IMG/VR virus record: IMGVR_UViG_3300008119_000478
Span: 1 to 48,835 of that record
DNA: 48,835 bases
Source: a virus
Reading direction: 5' to 3' (one strand)
How positions within the stretch are numbered: position 1 is the stretch's first letter; every line of letters begins with the position of its first letter. Of the stretch, positions 845 to 45,020 are shown piece by piece. Position numbers and translations under genes: made by a program. The notes under the pieces are model-generated. The model was not told where the DNA came from, ran no database searches, and saw only the letters and a program-made list of their open reading frames with translations.

Positions 845-1243
845 TTATCTATGCATTCCAAAGTTACCACTCATACGGACCTGTTCGATATCATTCTTTT
901 TAGCATAGTTATCTACACGCATGGCCAATTGAAAATCTAATATTGTTAATCCTTTAACATCAAACGTAGATGTTTTCACAGTAACTTCTGCTACATCCTG
1001 AGTTACTTCTGCAAAGTGATCCATTTTTTCGCATAGTTGATTGACCCAACTAACAAACTCTAGAGCATGTCTATGATCCTTAGCTACATATTTGGCTTGT
1101 AGGTCTTTGTGATCTAACATTTCCCAGTCAGGTAGGTATTTAGATTTAAGGTCATCTAGGGAATCATTACCGGGTTTAAATTCTTCTACGTCATTAGATC
1201 TAAATTGACCTTCTACTATATTAATTAAGTCCCTAATGTTCAT
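845..1243 (-). CDS. Small protein with capsid-targeting-like N-terminus
   Basis: A 132-residue protein of unknown function. It begins MNIRDLINIVEGQ, with Ile9-x-Glu11. This resembles the T4 internal-protein capsid targeting sequence (MKTYQEFIAE) that the gp21 prohead protease cuts after I/L-x-Glu. The rest is mixed charged sequence with no recognised domain. The ATG at 1243 overlaps the stop of the upstream gene and has an AGGATAG ribosome site. The packaging role is inference from the N-terminus only. Confidence 0.65.
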   Translation of the reverse strand: MNIRDLINIVEGQFRSNDVEEFKPGNDSLDDLKSKYLPDWEMLDHKDLQAKYVAKDHRHALEFVSWVNQLCEKMDHFAEVTQDVAEVTVKTSTFDVKGLTILDFQLAMRVDNYAKKNDIEQVRMSGNFGMHR

Positions 1244-1665
1244 TGTGTTCTATCCTTATTGTCTATAGCGCCGCCTGTGACCCATGATGTACATGATCGA
1301 TCGCCGGCACATTTAAAATGTAAAAAATTACAGTAGCCTAGATCTGCTCGGTGTATAGTGGCCATAGCATCAGCTGCTTTCTCATCGCCTTTGATACCAT
1401 CTTCTATACAGGCCCACATCTTATCTGATACATCAAAAGCTGCACAGTTTCCACACTTCATAGTTTTAGCAGTCTTTTCTGTAATGCTCCAACGACGGGC
1501 TGCGTCCTTCCAATATGATTCTGGCTCCTCAGGATTAGCAGGACCGTAGTGATATTCTTCTATGGCCTTCTGACGATTCTTTAAGTTAACGTCAATGTCG
1601 TGTGTGGCGATTGGACAGCCCTTGTTGGCTGCTTCTACTATGCGGATATATTTTCTGTACATCAT
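1240..1665 (-). CDS. Cysteine-containing small protein with capsid-targeting-like N-terminus
   Basis: A 141-residue protein beginning MMYRKYIRIVEAANKG, again with Ile9-Val-Glu11, the position expected for a T4-type prohead protease site. The middle and C-terminal parts carry several cysteines (KCGNCAAF, ACIED, GYCNFLHFKC, DRSCTSW), suggesting a metal-binding or disulfide-linked fold. The first 60 or so residues are duplicated in the broken gene at 4129-4381. The start overlaps the upstream stop in ATGA style. The family is not recognised by name. Confidence 0.7.
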   Translation of the reverse strand: MMYRKYIRIVEAANKGCPIATHDIDVNLKNRQKAIEEYHYGPANPEEPESYWKDAARRWSITEKTAKTMKCGNCAAFDVSDKMWACIEDGIKGDEKAADAMATIHRADLGYCNFLHFKCAGDRSCTSWVTGGAIDNKDRTQ

Positions 1666-3783: not shown

Positions 3784-4086
3784 TTAAACCTCTTGTTGAT
3801 TTGGATACATGCTTGGATCTTTTACACGTAGGTCATGTGGGTGTTTAGGGCCGTTTGCGCCACCGCCAGCATCTACTGTGACTGCTGTAATATCTGCTAT
3901 TTTTTCATTAGGACTATTGCTTAATGGGCTCATTTCACCAGGCTGTGTAACAATGCCTGCAATCTGCTTGAAACGTGCTAGATCGTCATCGCAATAGCCC
4001 TGAGGTGTATCGTCAGGTTGATCTGTGGCCTGTCCCGCTTGATCTATAAGGTCCAGGACTGTTCTAATAATCTCGTGTGCTCGCAT
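3784..4086 (-). CDS. Hypothetical 100-residue protein
   Basis: It begins MRAHEIIRTVLDLIDQAGQ, a short amphipathic helix, followed by an acidic, proline-containing and probably disordered part. The start resembles that of the 29607-29882 protein (MRAREF) but lacks the Ile-x-Glu cleavage site. A late-promoter core GCTAAATA lies 18 bases upstream. The gene runs directly into the PA14-like gene and is likely co-transcribed with it. Function unknown. Confidence 0.6.
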   Translation of the reverse strand: MRAHEIIRTVLDLIDQAGQATDQPDDTPQGYCDDDLARFKQIAGIVTQPGEMSPLSNSPNEKIADITAVTVDAGGGANGPKHPHDLRVKDPSMYPNQQEV

Positions 4087-4128: not shown

Positions 4129-4381
4129 TTATAAGATCCTGTGTATAGGGAGATTACTTGGTCCCCAAATAATACGTACGGCGCCACCACCTGCACCGCC
4201 TTGGCCGGAGTTTGGCAGCATCCTTCCAGTATGCCTCCGGTTCATCAGGATTGACTGGGCCGTAGTGATAGCTGTCAATAGCCTTCTGACGATTCTTCAA
4301 GTTGACATCAATGTCGTGTGTGGCAATAGGACAACCTTTGTTGGCAGCTTCTACTATGTTGATATATTTTCTATAAATCAT
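4129..4381 (-). pseudogene. Chimeric pseudogene: duplicated N-terminus joined to a tail-protein remnant
   Basis: The first 59 residues from the ATG at 4381 (MIYRKYINIVEAANKG onward) are close to the start of the 1240-1665 protein at both protein and DNA level. After DAAK the match stops. In the next frame the DNA then reads NSGQGGAGGGAVRIIWG and continues to a TAA at 4129. GGAGGGAVRIIWG is a C-terminal signature I associate with glycine-rich tail proteins of marine phages. Two unrelated genes therefore appear fused out of frame, the joint lying near 4200-4210. The capsid-targeting-like N-terminus is intact, so a short 75-residue product ending at 4154 may still be made. Confidence 0.75.
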
Positions 4382-14472: not shown

Positions 14473-16719
14473 TTAATCTCCAATTGCTAATATATAGGGT
14501 GTCATAACAGCAAATAAACTTTTAGTAAATGTTCTACCTGAAATTGTTCCAGTGTTTTGATTAATCACAAAGTCTTCACCGATTCTAAAGTCTCCACGTT
14601 GGTCAGTACCTGTGAAATAAACTTTTCCACCGTTAGTCGTTACCACCTGATTTTCTGTTATGGGTACCCCGCCTAAATAAGGCAATGCTGTATTTACATT
14701 GGTACCAGATCCTACAAATTCAAATGTGTGGCCCGATGCAGTTATTAGACTATATTGGTGGAATGTAACTACTGTGTTGTCAGCAATGTTAGGAGCAGAT
14801 TCTTCCAGAGTAATTATGCTGGTATAGGCATTTTCAATAATGTTGACCACTATGTCAAACAACTGTGTTACTAACAATGCTTCCGCAGACGAAGCAGCCG
14901 TAATAGCTGTATTTTGTGTTATTGTGATGTTAAGTGCTGTAACTACGGTATTAGTAACACATGCGCTGGCCACTGATTTAATATAATTAAATGTGGCTAT
15001 GGTTGCTGTTTTTTCAGACGTTTCAATTTGTAAAGTTCCTGAACTATAATATTCGTCGGCAGCATCGGCAGTTTGACTATTTCCATTGTATAAAACATCG
15101 TATGTAACAGCATCAACAATAAAAGAAATGTCTTGTCTACACTTGGTTTGATTGTAAGTTAATCCTGCAAAATTTGCTGTGATGTATGCAATACCTTCTT
15201 CTATCAAGAAATTTTTGTTTGCCTGTAAAATGTCAGCAGCGTTGGCAATGTTGGCAGTTACTCCAGTAGGATCATTAAAAACAAGTGTAGTCGCTGTGTT
15301 GTTTAATCCTGCAATCACTATGTTAAAGTTAGCTGCAGTTCTAGTATACTCTACGTCAGTAACAGCATAGTTAACTGCTAAAATTGCTAGTATTTTTGTT
15401 TTTACAAAATTGATTGCGGCAATAGTTTCGGTTAACTGATCATCTATAACCACACTGGCTGTGGCTCTTTGATAACTGATGCCAGCTAGACGAGATTTAT
15501 AGTTGGTGTTTAACACTAGATCATCTGCAACTGCATCAATAATATATCCCACATCTCTACTACATTTGAATTGATTAAAATCTAAATTTACATAAGTTTC
15601 ATTTAAAAAATCTATTGTGTCGACTTGTAATTTGCTTTTAGAATCTAAAATTATATTCCTAGCATTTTTTAATCCTGAAGCTTCTTGACTAAAACTGGGA
15701 TATGTGATATTAGTGGCTCCTGTTGTGAATGCGGATGATGTGGCCACTGTGTAATAATCTGCAAATCCTGTAAACTTGACTGCATCACCTACATTGGGCT
15801 TGACTACCAGGTTGTCCACAGTAAATGTTCGTCCGGCTGTTGTTCCGTTAACTGTTCCTTGATATAATGCAGTGCTTACACCGTCTGCTTTTAATCCAAA
15901 ATTACCAAAGCTGCTGTTACTGTTGGTAATTGAACAGAATCCTCCAGATTCACATAAAAAGGCTATGTCAGTACAGATTGTAAACACTGAAACCAATTGT
16001 GTGTTTCCTCTATTCAACATATGTATGCCGATACCGCCTTGATTATATTGTGTAAATGCATCTACAACCATGCTCTTTAATCCCAACGCATGATTTCCGT
16101 TGACTCTCATACCAGTACCTGTAGTAGTCATACTGGTGCAATTCTGTACATAAGGACTGGTATGAATAACTCCTGCGGAGCCATCTGTAGGAAATGCCAC
16201 GGCTGCGGCCGGAGCTTCGTGATCTTTAAATGTCATTTGTTCTAGATAACATGCAGATTTTACCCAAAACAAGTCTTGTGTGATGTTTGCTGGTCTAACA
16301 GTAACTGTTCTTAAATTGTCTCCTACTATCGACACACCTTCAGGAACTAATAACGGATTGTCTTCAGTGTAATCTCCACTTTTTACAAAAATTGTAGTTC
16401 CGTAAGTGGCTATTTCAACTGCTGCTTTGATAGTAAGTTTACTAGTGTTCAGTGCTAAACCATTATTGAGATCATTACCGCTTTTACTAACATAGAGTAC
16501 ATTGGCTACGATCATACTGCCTATACTTCCAGTAAAACCTGTACTGCCTACATATCCTCTTAAACCGCCATAGGGCAAAAGATTCCAGGTACTGACACCA
16601 TTACCAATCTTAAAAAGATTAGTATCTGTTTCTATACACATTTCTGCAAGTGCAAGCACAGGATTAACTGTACTCCACTCTTGAGCTGTGCCTCTTCTCA
16701 GTTGAATATTAATAGCCAT
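14473..16719 (-). CDS. Beta-helix tail fibre/spike protein
   Basis: 748 residues. The N-terminus MAINIQLRRGTAQEWSTVNP with KIGNGVSTWNLLPYGG is the common phage fibre attachment module. A short collagen-like bit (GYVGSTGFTGSIGS) follows. Residues about 75-330 look like a right-handed parallel beta-helix (VSKSGNDLNNGLALNT, IFVKSGDYTEDNP, VPEGVSIVGDN), the fold of pectate-lyase-like tailspikes. Two internal copies of a helical motif with Lys-Cys and DAV (near residues 376 and 523: FKCSRDVGYIIDAV and TKCRQDISFIVDAV) show an internal duplication. No catalytic residues can be assigned. Late promoter AATAAATA lies upstream. Confidence 0.8.
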   Translation of the reverse strand: MAINIQLRRGTAQEWSTVNPVLALAEMCIETDTNLFKIGNGVSTWNLLPYGGLRGYVGSTGFTGSIGSMIVANVLYVSKSGNDLNNGLALNTSKLTIKAAVEIATYGTTIFVKSGDYTEDNPLLVPEGVSIVGDNLRTVTVRPANITQDLFWVKSACYLEQMTFKDHEAPAAAVAFPTDGSAGVIHTSPYVQNCTSMTTTGTGMRVNGNHALGLKSMVVDAFTQYNQGGIGIHMLNRGNTQLVSVFTICTDIAFLCESGGFCSITNSNSSFGNFGLKADGVSTALYQGTVNGTTAGRTFTVDNLVVKPNVGDAVKFTGFADYYTVATSSAFTTGATNITYPSFSQEASGLKNARNIILDSKSKLQVDTIDFLNETYVNLDFNQFKCSRDVGYIIDAVADDLVLNTNYKSRLAGISYQRATASVVIDDQLTETIAAINFVKTKILAILAVNYAVTDVEYTRTAANFNIVIAGLNNTATTLVFNDPTGVTANIANAADILQANKNFLIEEGIAYITANFAGLTYNQTKCRQDISFIVDAVTYDVLYNGNSQTADAADEYYSSGTLQIETSEKTATIATFNYIKSVASACVTNTVVTALNITITQNTAITAASSAEALLVTQLFDIVVNIIENAYTSIITLEESAPNIADNTVVTFHQYSLITASGHTFEFVGSGTNVNTALPYLGGVPITENQVVTTNGGKVYFTGTDQRGDFRIGEDFVINQNTGTISGRTFTKSLFAVMTPYILAIGD

Positions 16720-16746
16720 AATTATATCAATTTACTTTGTGTTCTA

Positions 16747-16752
16747 TATTTA

Positions 16753-16754
<2 letters not shown>
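16747..16754 (-). promoter_or_regulatory. Late-promoter-like motif AATAAATA
   Basis: The minus strand reads AATAAATA 27 bases before the ATG at 16719, overlapping the stop of the giant upstream gene. It matches the T4 late element at seven of eight bases. It would give the beta-helix gene and its followers their own late transcript, separate from the 10.5-kb gene. Confidence 0.5.
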
Positions 16755-27246
<10,492 letters not shown>

Positions 27247-29606: not shown

Positions 29607-29882
29607 TTATCTTCGTGTAAAAAGGTTTCTATTAAGCTGAAGTGGAGGTGTGGGTTCGGCTTCGTCTTGAGTAAGATCTTGAATTATAGGGCTGTCTTTG
29701 CCTGCTTGTGCTTTCTTCAATTCAATATCTTGCTGTAGAGGTGGAACCATTACAGGATTGTCGTCTAGTTCTTGAGGATCTTTAGGTGAATCATTGTCTT
29801 GATCCATGTCAATTTCTGGATCTCCGTCGCCGTTGATCTTGATAGTAATAGGTACGTTGATGACAAATTCTCTAGCTCTCAT
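29607..29882 (-). CDS. Small acidic protein, 91 residues
   Basis: Begins MRAREFVINVPITIKINGDG, then a strongly acidic part (DPEIDMDQDNDSPKDPQE) and a C-terminal helix (LQQDIELKKAQAGKDSP). Probably largely unstructured, with an N-terminal strand pair. It is the first gene of the tail module transcript and has a GGAG ribosome site. The start resembles the 3784-4086 protein. It may be a scaffold or connector in tail assembly; the sequence does not show which. Confidence 0.6.
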   Translation of the reverse strand: MRAREFVINVPITIKINGDGDPEIDMDQDNDSPKDPQELDDNPVMVPPLQQDIELKKAQAGKDSPIIQDLTQDEAEPTPPLQLNRNLFTRR

Positions 29883-29921: not shown

Positions 29922-31121
29922 ATGATAGATAAAACACCCTTTGAAACTCTAATAACAGAACTTAAATCTAACGGCAAATATCGTGTGTTTAACGATATCA
30001 TGCGTGAGAACGGCAAGTTCCCCCAGGCTATTTGGTATGGACCATATGCTATAAAGAACATTGTAAACTGGTGTAGCAATGACTACTTAGGCATGGGTCA
30101 GCATAAGGTTGTTATAGATGCTATGCGTACGGCCCTGGACATGACTGGTGCAGGGTCAGGCGGTACTCGCAACATTGCAGGTACCAGTCACTATCACGTG
30201 GCATTGGAACTTGAGTTGGCTAGCCTACATAAGAAAGAACGGGCATTACTGTTTAGTTCAGCGTATGTGGCCAACGAGTGGACCTTAATCGCATTAGCCA
30301 AGATCATTCCCAACATTGAATACATTAGCGACAGCAACAATCATAACTCAATCATTGTGGGTATTCAGCACAGTCGTGCTAACAAACAGGTCTTCCGTCA
30401 TAACGATATGCAGAACTTAGAAGAGTGTCTGCAGGCTGCACAACTCTGCGGTAAGACTCCTTGCATTGTATTTGAGTCAGTGTACTCAATGGACGGTGAT
30501 GTGGGCATGATTAAAGAGATATGTGACCTAGCTGACAAGTATGGTGCTATCACCTACATTGACGAAGTACATGCTGTTGGCCTATATGGAGAAACAGGTG
30601 CAGGCAAAGTTGAGAAGTACGGGCTACAAGATCGTGTTGATATAATCAACGGTACACTTGGTAAGGCGTTTGGAGTACAGGGCGGATACATTGCCTGTGA
30701 CTCAATAGTAGCTGATGCTATACGTAGTATTGCTGCTGGCTTTATCTTTACAACATCTATGAGTCCCGTGACCTGTGCTGGTGCGCTGGCTGCTGTCAAA
30801 TACTTAAAGAGTCACGGGGAACTACGTGAGCAACATCAAGATCGTGCTCGCAAGCTAAAGTATAGATTGATCAAAGCTGGCATACCTGTCATGGAGTGCT
30901 CAACTACACACATTGTACCTGTACTAGTAGGAGATGCTAAACGTGCCAAAGCTATGAGTGATGCACTATTAAATGAACACAACATCTACTGCCAGCCTAT
31001 AAATTCTCCCACAGTAGATGTAGGAACGGAGAGGTTGCGATTTGCTCCCACTCCGTTTCATGATGATGGTATGATCGAGGACCTTGTTCAAGCCCTCGTC
31101 AAAGTGTTTAACACATACTAA
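29922..31121 (+). CDS. hemA: 5-aminolevulinate synthase
   Basis: 399 residues, the length of alphaproteobacterial ALA synthases. It joins glycine and succinyl-CoA to give 5-aminolevulinate, CoA and CO2 in the cytoplasm, the first step of tetrapyrrole synthesis by the Shemin route. Visible motifs: [10 protein letters not shown] (51-60), [13 protein letters not shown] (80-92), NNHNS (139-143), [13 protein letters not shown] (211-223, PLP-binding Asp214 and His217) and NGTLGKAFG (243-251) with the PLP lysine at 248, the same number as in the Rhodobacter enzyme. Arg21, which grips the succinyl carboxylate in that enzyme, also lines up. [10 protein letters not shown] separates it from BioF and KBL relatives. 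No N-terminal heme-regulatory CP motif is seen. It is alone on the plus strand here, typical of an acquired metabolic gene. Confidence 0.93.
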
Positions 31122-35747: not shown

Positions 35748-36256
35748 CTTAAGTACTCAAGCCATTCACTATGCCTTACTTGAAAAGGCATTGCTTTACG
35801 CTTATTTACTAGTTCGTAGAAGCTGGGCTTGTGTGGCTTAAACTTAGGAACAATCTTTTTATTATTACCTTTGCTGGCATTGCAGGGACCGCAGGCGGTA
35901 ACACAGTTTTCAAATGTAGTCTTACCACCTAGACTGGTTGGTAGTACATGATCTAATGTACAGTGTTTCTTTTCTAGATTGCAGCCACAATAGGCACAGT
36001 GATAGTTGTCACGCAGAAATACATTGCTTTTACTAAATCGAATAGCTATTTTAGGTTTCATGTACTCTTTGAGAATAACAATACTAGGTACAGCAGTTTC
36101 CCAGCGAGCTGATCTTACAATCCAATTATCGTGCCAAGCTAATACTGTGGCTTTATCTAAGACCATGTATTTGATTGCGTCCTGCCAAGTAATTGTACTA
36201 AGCGGCAGAAAGCTGACTGGTGCGCCGGTGGCGTTGAGTAATAGCGTATCTGACAT
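35744..36256 (-). CDS. HNH endonuclease
   Basis: 170 residues. The HNH block reads CAYCGCNLEKKHCTLDHVLP, then GGKTTFENCVTACGPCNASKG: two zinc CxxC pairs, the LDH catalytic His, the Asn and the final Asn-x-x-K. The N-terminal part (LLLNATGAPVSFLPLSTITW) is shared with a common bacterial and phage HNH group. It cuts DNA, either as a free-standing homing-type nuclease or in recombination. Not linked to an intron here. Confidence 0.9.
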   Translation of the reverse strand: MSDTLLLNATGAPVSFLPLSTITWQDAIKYMVLDKATVLAWHDNWIVRSARWETAVPSIVILKEYMKPKIAIRFSKSNVFLRDNYHCAYCGCNLEKKHCTLDHVLPTSLGGKTTFENCVTACGPCNASKGNNKKIVPKFKPHKPSFYELVNKRKAMPFQVRHSEWLEYLR

Positions 36257-36315
36257 TTTGGGTAATCATTTCTTTATTGTACGAAACAGCTTGTATTATA
36301 CAGCCGTTTAGGTAT

Positions 36316-36864
36316 TTACGCAAGTAATTTTTGAACAAATTCCGAACCAGAATGCTCAATAGAGCTAGTCCATTGGTCTGTTCCGTCTAGTCCAAAAACT
36401 CCTTCTTGCGTTGGAGTTGCTGTTAGCCAACTGAACGCATGATTGTAAGGGCTTACACCGTTAAGTTCATTTTCTAGTTGGTCCGGAGTCCATGCACATA
36501 ATCCAACTATGAGTCTCCAGTAGTTTGGACAGTCGCCCATTGCTAGTCTCTGCAATAGATCTGCGTGTGAACTAATACTAAACTGATTATTAATTTGCAT
36601 TGTGTTTTCACAAGCCCATTCTGCACTATGTATCATAGTAAGAGCTTTTACATTAACTGGACCACCTACATACATAAATCCGTCAATGTCGCAATCTACA
36701 TTGCAATTTTGTGCAAACTCTCTAATGGGCATTTTACTAACTTTATTAAGCACTAGCCCCATACTACCGCGGGCATGATTCTCTGTAACATAGATTACAG
36801 TCTTTTGCCAAAAGTTTCCCCTCACACTAGGAGGAGCAATTAAAAGTTTACCAGTTAAATTCAT
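36316..36864 (-). CDS. YqgE/AlgH-like (UPF0301) protein
   Basis: 182 residues. GKLLIAPPSVRGNFWQKTVI and ENHARGSMGLVLNKVSKMP are the typical start of UPF0301, followed by YVGGPVNVKALTMIH and GYCAW-like late motif GLCAWTPDQLENEL. The family is widespread in Gram-negative bacteria, with a disputed regulatory role; one member (AlgH) affects alginate and other traits. A phage copy may mimic the host protein. It overlaps the upstream gene (TAATG). Confidence 0.85.
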   Translation of the reverse strand: MNLTGKLLIAPPSVRGNFWQKTVIYVTENHARGSMGLVLNKVSKMPIREFAQNCNVDCDIDGFMYVGGPVNVKALTMIHSAEWACENTMQINNQFSISSHADLLQRLAMGDCPNYWRLIVGLCAWTPDQLENELNGVSPYNHAFSWLTATPTQEGVFGLDGTDQWTSSIEHSGSEFVQKLLA

Positions 36865-37748
36865 TATGCAAATCTTTGTATAGAACTCTTTACGTCAGCG
36901 ATAGTAATGGATCCATCTTTGTTTTTATCCAAACCTTTATTTTGTTTGTACACCAAATCACTACTTAGGTTTGTTCCCGGTACTTTGCCGCCGCCTTGTT
37001 GTCCTAGTACAAAATCATCAGGATACCCAACAAACTTAGGCATAAACACTGCCATATATAAATCACCTAGATCCATTCCTGGTCTAACACCTACCATTTT
37101 AAAATACTTGTAGACATAGTCTAGTTGTTCAACTGCAGACATTCCTCGTAATGCTTCTACACTAGTTCCTAATGATCTAGCTGTGTCTGGCATAAACTGT
37201 ATAAGTCCTGTAGCTCCTGACTGTTTGTTAACAGCTGCCGGATCAACTCTAGACTCCATTTTCATAATAGCTAATAAATTTTTACTGCTTACACCTAATG
37301 CATCTGCAATCTTATCTAACTTTTTATTAAAATTAGGATCTTGAATTGCACTAGTATCTATACTACTTGCACTAGGTGCTGCTTTAACATCTGCAGGTGT
37401 ACTTTTAATTAGCTTACCAGCAACATCAGGTTTTGATTTTAGAACGTCATTTAATTTAGCAACTGTGGCAGGTCCCGGATCTCCATCAACTGTTAATCCG
37501 TTATCTGTTTGAAACTTCTTAACTGCATCCACAGTCTCCGGGCCACGGATTCCATCAACGCCATGCTTTGGTAGAGGATAACCTAATGCAATCAAAGCTT
37601 TCTGTACATCTGCTACTTCTGTGCCACGACGACCTTTAGGAACATCTACAGTAAATGATCCTAATTTATCTTTAGTTCTAGGAGCACCGGGTTCAGATCC
37701 AGACGGTCCAAACTTTTCATTTATAATTTTAAATTCGTTAAATCTCAT
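36864..37748 (-). CDS. Peptidoglycan-binding lytic transglycosylase with EF-hand and capsid-targeting-like N-terminus
   Basis: 294 residues. Residues 1-11 (MRFNEFKIINE) resemble a T4 capsid targeting sequence with an I-x-E cleavage site. Residues about 42-103 are a PG-binding domain (GTEVADVQKALIALGYP, GVDGIRGPETVDAVKKFQ). Residues about 140-245 are an SLT-type transglycosylase with Glu165 in MKMESRVDP and GATGLIQFMPDTA. Residues 274-285 (DKNKDGSITIAD) are a textbook calcium-binding EF-hand loop. It would cut the glycan strands of the wall. If the N-terminus is truly a packaging tag, the enzyme may be carried in the head and used at DNA entry. Confidence 0.85.
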   Translation of the reverse strand: MRFNEFKIINEKFGPSGSEPGAPRTKDKLGSFTVDVPKGRRGTEVADVQKALIALGYPLPKHGVDGIRGPETVDAVKKFQTDNGLTVDGDPGPATVAKLNDVLKSKPDVAGKLIKSTPADVKAAPSASSIDTSAIQDPNFNKKLDKIADALGVSSKNLLAIMKMESRVDPAAVNKQSGATGLIQFMPDTARSLGTSVEALRGMSAVEQLDYVYKYFKMVGVRPGMDLGDLYMAVFMPKFVGYPDDFVLGQQGGGKVPGTNLSSDLVYKQNKGLDKNKDGSITIADVKSSIQRFA

Positions 37749-38011
37749 TTGCGTGTGCCCCAGTCTGGTATCTTGCCACCATATTTCTTGCCTTTAACTT
37801 TATGTCCGCCCATGGTCATACGACTCTCTGGGCCTTTACCCATTAAGTGACTTTTGTTGCCTTCTCGGCGGCGCAGGCCTTGACTCTTACATGATGCAAG
37901 ATTACTGGCCCCTAAATCATTGTTAGGCTTAGTGCTTAAACATAGCTTTCTACTGGCTTTTTCGTCAATAGCGTCTAGTTCTTCGTCTGTAATAAATTCG
38001 TTAATTAGCAT
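37745..38011 (-). CDS. Small basic conserved-type phage protein, 88 residues
   Basis: Begins MLINEFITDEELDAIDE, then a basic part (ASCKSQGLRRREGNKSHLMG, KVKGKKYGGKIPDW). The combination resembles a short protein I have seen in T4-like cyanophages and pelagiphages, of unknown role. The N-terminus is again like a capsid-targeting tag, though the cleavage site is less regular. The basic tail could bind DNA. It overlaps the transglycosylase gene and is preceded by AATAAATA only 7 bases upstream. Confidence 0.65.
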   Translation of the reverse strand: MLINEFITDEELDAIDEKASRKLCLSTKPNNDLGASNLASCKSQGLRRREGNKSHLMGKGPESRMTMGGHKVKGKKYGGKIPDWGTRK

Positions 38012-42911: not shown

Positions 42912-43448
42912 ATGATAGTCAAATCATATGACTATTCTAGTTTAATCACAGACAACGATGAAGAAGATGCTTGCCACATTATTAAAGGCATAATCGACGC
43001 TGGCAATTACTTTACCAACAGTCCTCCGTTTCAAACCAACGAGAATTTGTTTGGTAGGTCTGAAGCAGTTTGGCTAAAGTATCGTATGACATTCCTAACC
43101 AGTGTGTTCCTCTACTTAGGTAAGGAACACAAAGTAGCCAATATGATGGCTTGGTCGTTTATGAGTAATAAAGACTCACAACCAGATCCAGAAAAACTTT
43201 GGCATCATCATGACAAACACGGCATGAAAGGACTAAGTGGTATATTGTATTTGCATGTACCTGACATACACGCAGAGTCCGGAACAGAGATGGCTCCGAA
43301 CGGTCCTAAGGGCGATGGCAAGTTTTTTGTAGGGCCAAACAAACACTCTTGGAATATCTATCCTAGTGAAACTTGGCATAGGCCTGGCCCTATTAGAACT
43401 AACGACTATCGTTATACACTAGCAGTTGATGTAGGGTACTACGAATGA
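42912..43448 (+). CDS. 2OG-Fe(II) oxygenase-like protein
   Basis: 178 residues. WHHHDKHGMKGLSGILYLHV gives the HxD metal pair with the following beta strands, and ETWHRPGPIRTNDYRYTLAV gives the distal His and the Arg that holds 2-oxoglutarate. Phages carry similar enzymes for hydroxylation of protein or nucleic acid. I started at MIVKSYDYSS (42912); an ORF from 42861 runs through the upstream gene. The substrate is unknown. Confidence 0.65.
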   Translation: MIVKSYDYSSLITDNDEEDACHIIKGIIDAGNYFTNSPPFQTNENLFGRSEAVWLKYRMTFLTSVFLYLGKEHKVANMMAWSFMSNKDSQPDPEKLWHHHDKHGMKGLSGILYLHVPDIHAESGTEMAPNGPKGDGKFFVGPNKHSWNIYPSETWHRPGPIRTNDYRYTLAVDVGYYE

Positions 43449-43765
43449 ATATTACTGTTAAAAAAACTGACAAGAGATTCACTGGCTCGGACATATTCCA
43501 TTATGTTGTAGATATTAAAAATGGGTCTTTTCCTGTAATTGCTAATAGATTTAGTAAAGCTCAAAAACTCAAAAAGTTCCAAGAGGTTAGGGATTGGTGC
43601 ATACAAACTTGGGGCATGAGTTGTGAGCGTGAACACTACTTACAACTGCTAGGGGATGAATATGATGTTAATAGTCATTGGTGTTGGCACAGTGAGTTCT
43701 ACGACACTAAGATCTATCTACGCTCGGACAAAGAGGCCAATTGGTTTAAATTGAAATGGCTATGA
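43445..43765 (+). CDS. WFxLRW-array paralogue 1
   Basis: 106 residues. The middle VRDWCIQTWGMSC and the end DKEANWFKLKWL define a motif shared by the next five genes. No domain is known. Start ATG 43445 overlaps the upstream stop in ATGA form. Confidence 0.75.
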   Translation: MNITVKKTDKRFTGSDIFHYVVDIKNGSFPVIANRFSKAQKLKKFQEVRDWCIQTWGMSCEREHYLQLLGDEYDVNSHWCWHSEFYDTKIYLRSDKEANWFKLKWL

Positions 43766-43974
43766 CTATTACTATTGAAGATCGAGACCTAACTGCTATA
43801 CTATGTATAGTTGCAGAACTACGTGCTAGTGGGTTGGTGCAAGGGGTGCATTTTGACTTTGCCTACAATCAACGCCGTTGGGATCCTATGATTGGTGACG
43901 TTAAAGGCTTTACCAATTTTACATTCTACGAAGAAAAGTATTCAACTCTATTTGCATTAAAATATCTGTCATGA
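43762..43974 (+). CDS. WFxLRW-array paralogue 2 (divergent)
   Basis: 70 residues. The end YSTLFALKYLS corresponds to the WFxLRW end, with the Trp positions replaced. The central W-C part is missing. The start is placed at ATG 43762, matching the ATGA overlaps in the rest of the array, rather than 43756. Confidence 0.65.
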   Translation: MTITIEDRDLTAILCIVAELRASGLVQGVHFDFAYNQRRWDPMIGDVKGFTNFTFYEEKYSTLFALKYLS

Positions 43975-44297
43975 CTTTAGAAGAAGCAATATTAGAAGAC
44001 GCGGCACAGAAGATATCTGATGATATTGATAAACAGGTGCTTAAAGGTATGGGTTATGTTTTTGATTACTATCTAGAGCACGGCCGAGGCACAATCTACG
44101 GTCAGGAGTATCTCTCAGTGGCTCCAATAAATGCAGAAGGCATGTGGAGTGACATGATGGCATGGATGATTAAGACATTTGGTCCTACACCCTTTGATAG
44201 TATATGGACACCCGGTCAACGTTGGCATGTAAACAATGCCAAGTTTTGGTTCCGTGATGCTAAAGACCGTGATTGGTTTGTATTGAGGTGGTCATGA
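43971..44297 (+). CDS. WFxLRW-array paralogue 3
   Basis: 108 residues. The acidic N-terminus (TLEEAILEDAAQKISDDIDK) is followed by MMAWMIKTFGPTPFD and the end AKDRDWFVLRWS. The overlap with its neighbours is four bases at each side. Confidence 0.75.
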   Translation: MTLEEAILEDAAQKISDDIDKQVLKGMGYVFDYYLEHGRGTIYGQEYLSVAPINAEGMWSDMMAWMIKTFGPTPFDSIWTPGQRWHVNNAKFWFRDAKDRDWFVLRWS

Positions 44298-44527
44298 TCA
44301 AAGTGGACCCATACCCTTATATCAATACTGCACATTTTTATTGGCAGAATAACATTCCTTGTAATCCCGAGTCTTACCATGAAGGTCACTGGGATAAAGA
44401 TTTTGAGAATTGGTTATGTCCTATATATCGATGCCGAATCAAAGTTAGAAAAAAAGACGGCTCTATAAGATGGTTTGAATTTGATAATGATCAAGATGCC
44501 ATTTGGTTTAAACTGAGGTGGTCATGA
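44294..44527 (+). CDS. WFxLRW-array paralogue 4
   Basis: 77 residues from MIKVDPYPY. Contains FENWLCPIYRCRIKV and ends DQDAIWFKLRWS. The ATG at 44294 overlaps the previous stop (ATGA); the longer frame from 44273 is not needed. Confidence 0.75.
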   Translation: MIKVDPYPYINTAHFYWQNNIPCNPESYHEGHWDKDFENWLCPIYRCRIKVRKKDGSIRWFEFDNDQDAIWFKLRWS

Positions 44528-44805
44528 CGGGATTTGCAAGCAAACGATCAATGTCTGCACAAGCATTTATGCACATGTACAAACAGCCTACTAAGATCAT
44601 TTGGCATCAACTGCCCGGACGCAAGCTCAAAGCCACTTGGTTGCCGCAAGCAAGAGGATTTGAAATGGGATTAAAAGAATCCGATATGGATCCAATCCAA
44701 AAGTGGTGCCAGGATTCAAACTGTGGCAAACGTATTAGTTTTGATATGTTTCAATTCAAAACAGATAAACAGATAACAATGTTCTTATTAAGGTGGAGTT
44801 CCTAA
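44524..44805 (+). CDS. WFxLRW-array paralogue 5
   Basis: 93 residues from MTGFASKRS. Contains DPIQKWCQDSNCGKRISFD and ends TDKQITMFLLRWSS. The basic N-terminal half is longer than in the sisters. Confidence 0.75.
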   Translation: MTGFASKRSMSAQAFMHMYKQPTKIIWHQLPGRKLKATWLPQARGFEMGLKESDMDPIQKWCQDSNCGKRISFDMFQFKTDKQITMFLLRWSS

Positions 44806-45020
44806 TGATTTTAAAAACATGTGAAGTAGGTATGTTTAGACTTCCAGGCATTACTATTGAGGCTGAAGAAGAAGAAACTATTACAGAAGAACAACTTAAA
44901 GAAATGGAAGATTGGTGTAACAGTGAGTTTGGCAAAGGTATGCGTATGACTGAAAGACTGTTCAGCTTCCGAAAAGAAAGTCAAAGGGATTGGTTTATCT
45001 TAAGATGGAGTAAAACATGA
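44805..45020 (+). CDS. WFxLRW-array paralogue 6
   Basis: 71 residues from MILKTCEVG. An acidic helical stretch (EAEEEETITEEQLKEMEDWC), then FGKGMRM and the end SQRDWFILRWSKT. The ATG overlaps the previous TAA (TAATG). Confidence 0.75.
   Translation: MILKTCEVGMFRLPGITIEAEEEETITEEQLKEMEDWCNSEFGKGMRMTERLFSFRKESQRDWFILRWSKT

Follow-up and report, generated by a model that had tools for sequence, protein, structure and literature searches.

Putative T4-type capsid-targeting tags on unrelated proteins of an uncultured phage and its relatives

In phage T4, the first 10 residues of the internal protein IPIII are enough for packaging; residues 4 and 7 of this tag matter for targeting and residues 8 and 10 for cutting, and the prohead protease gp21 cuts after L/I-x-E (PMC9026906). 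The T4 review that describes this system proposes that the capsid-targeting sequence (CTS) may be a general means of loading varied proteins, and it lists Alt, an ADP-ribosyltransferase, as carried in the head and injected (PMC9026906). IPI and IPIII aid T4 in withstanding the defences of its host (PMC9391042). The ejection proteins of phiKZ and SPN3US are also head cargo, behind propeptides that are cut after Glu by a gp21 relative. In addition, Iyer et al. 2017 (PMC5512222) describe polyvalent proteins, multidomain proteins of phages for which delivery to the host together with the DNA has been proposed. In the open-access literature on phage HiPIP, cyanophage CTS, and signal-bearing injected cargo, we found no such tags beyond T4, P1, and SPN3US.

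Here, we analyzed a window of 48,835 nucleotides (the whole stretch under study, positions 1 to 48,835 of the 50.8-kb IMG/VR record IMGVR_UViG_3300008119_000478) together with related viral contigs. As in T4 IPI, IPII, IPIII, and Alt, tags of 8-12 residues ending in hydrophobic-x-Glu stand before unrelated bodies; relatives of the window phage encode a T4-type head with gp20, gp21, and gp23, and an ADP-ribosyltransferase is among the tagged proteins. Unlike in T4, the body families are far more numerous (about 45 clusters) and the tag length is variable, and the bodies include a pterin-4a-carbinolamine dehydratase (PCD) fold, GH19, GDSL lipase, NUDIX, and nucleotidyltransferase, which are not known among the T4 internal proteins. 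Moreover, multi-module proteins repeat the signal at module borders, and targeting, cleavage, packaging, and injection are here inferred from sequence alone. The comparison with phiKZ and SPN3US differs in that their heads and proteases are highly diverged, whereas our contigs have head genes close to those of T4 and cyanophages and share one short motif as their tag. For polyvalent proteins, the abstract of the source mentions no T4-type targeting tag; our proteins are short chains of modules, each border of which has hydrophobic-x-Glu.

We consider it likely that these N-termini of 8-12 residues act as propeptides that direct proteins to a T4-type capsid. As the prohead assembles, the tag would attach to the internal core and thereby bring the enzyme or small protein that follows it into the head; a gp21-type prohead protease would then cut after hydrophobic-x-Glu, leaving the body loose in the capsid; and the freed body would enter the host along with the DNA. 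The window cargo would consist of a PCD-fold protein, a protein of the Cys-rich "HiPIP" family, an SLT transglycosylase, and the 88-aa protein at 37745-38011, while in relatives the same tag heads multi-module proteins that the protease would probably divide inside the prohead. More tentatively, and at somewhat less than an even chance in our judgment, the swapped tag in a large group of uncultured aquatic T4-like jumbo phages would serve as a general capsid-export signal for dozens of effector families, with the prohead protease cutting multi-module cargo before delivery. Relative to T4, the new elements are the breadth of bodies, the tag swapping in uncultured relatives, and the repetition of the signal at module borders, which we did not find described in the open-access literature. 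If true, the proteins brought into the host by uncultured T4-like phages could be predicted by applying a sequence rule to their DNA, whereas proteins of this first wave are so far known from hardly any phage but T4 (Alt, IPI, which counters restriction, and IPIII). The reading would also mean that the prohead protease processes modular cargo, and would provide a ready set of tags and bodies for the existing protein-packaging system of T4.

The features of the window that bear on this reading are as follows.

845-1243, minus strand: tagged PCD-fold protein, 132 aa (PF01329 and Foldseek; catalytic His pair lost)
1211-1243, minus strand: codons of its tag MNIRDLINIVE, predicted cut before Gly12 (Glu at the junction across PCD ORFs)
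1240-1665, minus strand: tagged Cys-rich protein, 141 aa, homologs named "high potential iron-sulfur protein" (homology to phage DSL-LC01)
1633-1665, minus strand: codons of its tag MMYRKYIRIVE, predicted cut before Ala12 (conserved Glu)
3784-4086, minus strand: weak tag-like start without Glu, MRAHEIIRTVLDLIDQ (from homolog starts)
4154-4381, minus strand: truncated second Cys-rich copy with intact tag MIYRKYINIVE (codons 4349-4381)
29607-29882, minus strand: weak tag-like start without Glu, MRAREFVINVPIT (from homolog starts)
36864-37748, minus strand: tagged PG_binding_1 and SLT transglycosylase, 294 aa (PF01471, E 3e-17; PF01464, E 7e-10)
37716-37748, minus strand: codons of its tag MRFNEFKIINE (tag differs on the homolog in contig G013)
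37745-38011, minus strand: further tagged small protein, 88 aa, MLINEFITDEELDAIDE/KASRKLC... (tag codons 37961-38011)

An earlier, sequence-only reading of this DNA had noted that four ORFs share Ile at residue 9 and Glu at residue 11, and we find all four on the minus strand with both residues in place (MNIRDLINIVE/G, MMYRKYIRIVE/A, MIYRKYINIVE/A, and MRFNEFKIINE/K, where the slash marks the predicted cut). Exactly these four of the 60 genes called in the 50.8-kb record combine I9 and E11, compared with 0.14 expected by composition and about 0.23 expected from how often, on average, IxE falls on a given internal position of the same proteins (0.38%). Since the protein at 1240-1665 and the truncated copy at 4154-4381 belong to one family, these represent three independent cases, not four. 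A fifth tag, MLINEFITDEELDAIDE/K at 37745-38011, had been missed.

The same reading had listed the first two proteins as being of unknown function, a description that no longer applies: the protein at 845-1243 has a PCD fold, and that at 1240-1665 is a relative of HiPIP-named proteins. Residues 36-112 of the former match PF01329, the PCD family (E 1.4e-18), and its AlphaFold model (pLDDT 81) matches PCD structures in Foldseek (2v6t, E 4e-7; 2ebb, TMt 0.91). In the model, the tag forms a low-confidence helix, followed by disordered residues 11-17. The phage protein resembles pterin-4a-carbinolamine dehydratase/DCoH in sequence family and predicted fold, and differs from it by the extra tag and modules and by its catalytic residues: HHP and THD are replaced by DHF and TFD/TSD in the window protein and in 24/24 aligned homologs, with two of the three catalytic His absent. 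Given this replacement, the protein is probably not an active dehydratase.

Glu stands directly before the PCD domain in all 47 complete PCD ORFs, and P3 at this junction is hydrophobic in nearly all of them (Thr, Ala, or Lys in a few). The tags before PCD in viral contigs vary (MRITDIVE, MKIQDVVSE, MRNWINIVE, MRFEDFQE, and others) and always end in Glu directly before G[KQE][FY]R or SRS. In some ORFs, a nucleotidyltransferase domain or Lys/Cys-rich modules come first, so that about 30-330 residues precede PCD, and a tag still opens these ORFs (MRINELFE/AD, MKLNELFE/AP, MRAHELSE/KW, and MKLREIFE/NG).

The Cys-rich protein at 1240-1665 is 46% identical over residues 11-137 to an ORF of phage DSL-LC01. 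The tag Glu of its family is kept in 96% of 70 distinct DNA copies, with Ile or Leu at P3 in about 96%. The tag codons undergo free synonymous change while the peptide holds, which indicates that the peptide is what is kept. Cys17, 71, 74, 86, 112, 119, and 125 are invariant in the family, with no predicted fold in which to place them (pLDDT 39 for 1240-1665). Pfam, NCBIfam, and PDB searches gave no match for this protein, and the HIPIP family of Pfam reached only E 0.06, below the cut-off, in one distant homolog. Given no profile or PDB match and no predicted fold, we do not claim an iron-sulfur (HiPIP) identity; the GenBank name is without support from profile or fold. Homologs occur in the late gene blocks of unrelated phages, namely between the portal and major capsid genes of DSL-LC01 and beside a DNA transfer protein and a transglycosylase in a P22-like phage.

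The first part of the truncated copy at 4154-4381 is 93% identical to a full-length copy elsewhere, followed by a short, unrelated C-terminus; it looks like a duplication remnant of the Cys-rich gene. Two tail-type genes and the small gene 3784-4086 lie between it and the full copy. Five of the six homologs of 3784-4086 keep an MRAxE[IL]I-kind start (one reads MRVTEII), and this gene might, as a weak suggestion from its start, encode a targeted but uncut protein. The homologs of 29607-29882 begin MRALADIIE/K (contig G005) and MRALADIID/K (contig G006).

The proposal that a prohead protease cuts these proteins after I/L-x-E gains support both from the Glu before PCD and from the co-occurrence of PF03420 (gp21, an S77-type protease) with gp20 and gp23 in three PCD-bearing contigs (G006, G017, and G020). 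Of these, G006 (357 kb) holds both PCD and the Cys-rich protein, and G017 is nearly identical to part of G006. PCD contigs that include head genes encode gp20, the gp21 protease, and gp23. The 50.8-kb record of the window, a fragment, has no gene for a protease, capsid, or portal. Head genes are missing as well from the contigs closest to it in synteny (G013, G021, and G001), which do hold T4-type relatives (RIIA, NrdA/B, gp41, and UvsW-like). Therefore, the link to gp21 runs through more distant relatives. As controls, the gp21 profile was positive in T4, KVP40, P-SSM2, S-PM2, and HTVC008M and negative in T5 and SPO1. It detected no gp21 in 42 further, mostly short contigs, an absence that is uninformative, since the head genes are located elsewhere. 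In gp23, the maturation region is ..RRYLAE/SATAGATSAGNVATL. Two of the small tagged proteins, MRLRELIE/TASAGATSAGSVAAV and MKIKELIE/AATAGATSSGSIATV, continue after Glu in nearly the same way as mature gp23, a similarity that links the border of the tag with the site of the capsid protease.

An S78 protease was also considered as the processing enzyme and rejected, as none of the 21 large related contigs that we searched had one and it was found only in T5, SPO1, and DSL-LC01. We likewise rejected the idea that PCD and the Cys-rich protein belong to the T4-like core genes, since they are accessory in gp21-bearing contigs: PCD was found in 3 and the Cys-rich protein in 1 of 13 such IMG/VR contigs, the positives being only those fetched through either protein, and both were found in 0/5 named T4-like phages.

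In multi-module relatives, hydrophobic-x-Glu recurs inside the protein. The PCD domain has a C-terminal Glu in 28/28 ORFs with a downstream module, compared with 4/19 without one. Across every recurrent Lys/Cys-rich module that we mapped, hydrophobic-x-Glu precedes module A (KWSxKYKRSINC..) in 11 of 12 distinct contexts, module B (KDACYxKVKSR..) in 13 of 13, and module C (YGRYWCSTDKKWK..) in 4 of 4, and Glu stands at a fixed distance before module D (NFADGKxPGRKG; 14/14). A further module, ..RRKSFRARHxC, has no Glu directly before the searched motif, which need not mark the start of this module. Module B also occurs in P-SSM2, again after ..VEE. Because hydrophobic-x-Glu stands before each module, the multi-module proteins are probably polyproteins divided by the protease inside the prohead, and the border residues suggest that they would be cargo cut in this way. 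The internal Glu could instead be linker or helix-cap residues, with only the N-terminal tag cut and the multi-module proteins remaining whole. We regard this as doubtful but deserving serious weight: Glu is common in linkers and a few PCD borders have a non-hydrophobic P3, whereas the C-terminal Glu of PCD follows the presence of a downstream module, and modules A-C are preceded by hydrophobic-x-Glu regardless of the upstream sequence.

We next consider what the tagged bodies are. Those named by Pfam comprise PCD, a cytidylyltransferase-like domain, GH19, SLT, DUF6267, a weak NT5C, NUDIX joined to ADP-ribosyltransferase, and GDSL lipase with peptidoglycan binding. The lytic transglycosylase at 36864-37748 has both its SLT catalytic domain and its peptidoglycan-binding domain. 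These identities bear on an alternative that we judge unlikely, namely that the tags are real and cut by gp21 but the cargo is structural, acting as core filler or DNA-associated protein that stays in the head or aids assembly. The PCD-fold protein without its catalytic His residues, the many small, Lys/Cys-rich bodies, and the accessory distribution of PCD and the Cys-rich protein over few gp21 contigs would all fit structural cargo, as would the precedent of T4 gp22, gp67, and gp68, which are cut core proteins without effector roles (PMC9026906). However, enzymes (NUDIX with ADP-ribosyltransferase, GH19, GDSL lipase, nucleotidyltransferase, and SLT) would be hard to explain as filler, and the counterparts known in T4, Alt and IPI/IPIII, exert their effects in the host. 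As a separate observation, the tagged NUDIX and ADP-ribosyltransferase protein is located at L295:18532-19818 (contig G011), within a run of tagged genes.

The reading of the N-termini as targeting propeptides also agrees with the exchange of tags between bodies. One body carries different tags, and one syntenic slot shows the same tag on different enzymes. Specifically, the homologous SLT body in G013 (66% identity) carries MRAREFLRE/A, and the slot occupied by the transglycosylase holds in G021 a GDSL-lipase protein with MRFNEFKILSE/K. Homologs of the 88-aa protein (57-71%) start with MKTTDFINKEELDDLDE and MLIHEFINQQDIDDLDE, and its body is a movable module, which in G001 makes up residues 91-162, at the C-terminus, of a different tagged protein. 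The N-termini in the window and its relatives appear to behave like the capsid-targeting sequences of T4. Bodies behind a conserved start would also be exchanged if the peptide had no function and genes recombined at conserved 5' DNA (ribosome-binding site and first codons), but this is very improbable here, as tag DNA differs between genes of one genome, tag codons change synonymously, and Glu persists at module borders inside the proteins, a long way from any start.

To evaluate the tag across contigs, we used a fixed motif (M[KRN]x2-3[DEQN]hydrophobic...hydrophobic-x-E at 8-12), genes from our own simple caller, and a null in which residues 3-16 were shuffled. The motif was partly shaped after seeing related contigs; nine further contigs, which had played no part in defining it, were scanned with the definition unchanged. 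In these, 42 of 1,164 proteins carry the motif, compared with 9.6 +/- 3.0 in shuffles, and 0/500 shuffles reach 42. The count falls to 34 if six PCD genes, PCD being the reason for fetching these contigs, and two near-duplicates of G017 genes are left out. The motif starts also exceed the shuffles in PCD contigs with gp21 (11 vs 2.0), in other PCD or Cys-rich contigs (26 vs 6.1), and in named gp21 phages (22 vs 10.9), and S-PM2 and HTVC008M, both gp21-bearing, show no excess. Six phages without gp21 show a milder excess (15 vs 7.1 expected, z 3.1, mostly from ICP1), so the motif alone is no proof of a tag in a single protein. Outside the window, a broader tag definition gives only 0.8-2.4-fold odds in the contigs, and hydrophobic-x-E, sought loosely at residues 8-12, is not in genome-wide excess in any contig; the signal appears only with the whole pattern M-[KRN]-x2-3-[DEQN]-hydrophobic...hydrophobic-x-E.

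Tagged genes also adjoin one another, with 10 adjacent pairs compared with 1.7 expected (p < 0.0005), none in the gp21-negative set, and a run of seven at 16250-23593 of G011. Over all contigs, 79 tagged proteins form 45 body clusters; since the contigs are related to each other, these counts are not independent events. The same scan picks up the starts of the T4 internal proteins, gp21, gp22, gp24, and Alt, and in P-SSM2 it finds MKSFSQFLTE/TTATQ on PSSM2_194, a gene annotated as cytidyltransferase. With some 45 body families, an excess over shuffles, and tag swaps, the suggestion that unrelated proteins share T4-type capsid-targeting tags is supported. That MK/MR starts with hydrophobic and acidic residues and an IxE near residue 10 are accidental is strongly disfavored, because, although the excess in gp21-negative phages and the flat loose IxE profile would fit chance, the count in the further contigs, the clustering of tagged genes, the tag swaps, and the Glu at every PCD border would not.

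Several other features were observed in the window and its relatives. At 43445-45020 on the plus strand, a run of small ORFs shares a C-terminal motif (..ANWFKLKWL, ..RDWFVLRWS, ..AIWFKLRWS, ..TMFLLRWSS, and ..RDWFILRWSKT), and a similar run lies at 35920-37650 of G013. In this latter kind of run, a 102-aa ORF (G013:36246-36554, IMGVR_UViG_3300047548_001036) begins gp23-like, VMIPIINKVMPSLIVQEITGVQPM. In T4, it is this region of the capsid protein that sets off the Lit defence, so the ORF could conceivably be a decoy or regulator. The 3497-aa protein at 16753-27246 (minus strand) contains cadherin-like repeats and then many G-[FY]-[TV]-G-S collagen-like repeats, and is probably a very long tail fibre; these repeats are also found in neighboring ORFs and in contig G021. 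Finally, an aminotransferase-like gene of 399 aa at 29922-31121 (plus strand) lies on the strand opposite to its neighbors, is 77% identical in G013, and by eye resembles 5-aminolevulinate or 2-amino-3-ketobutyrate synthase.
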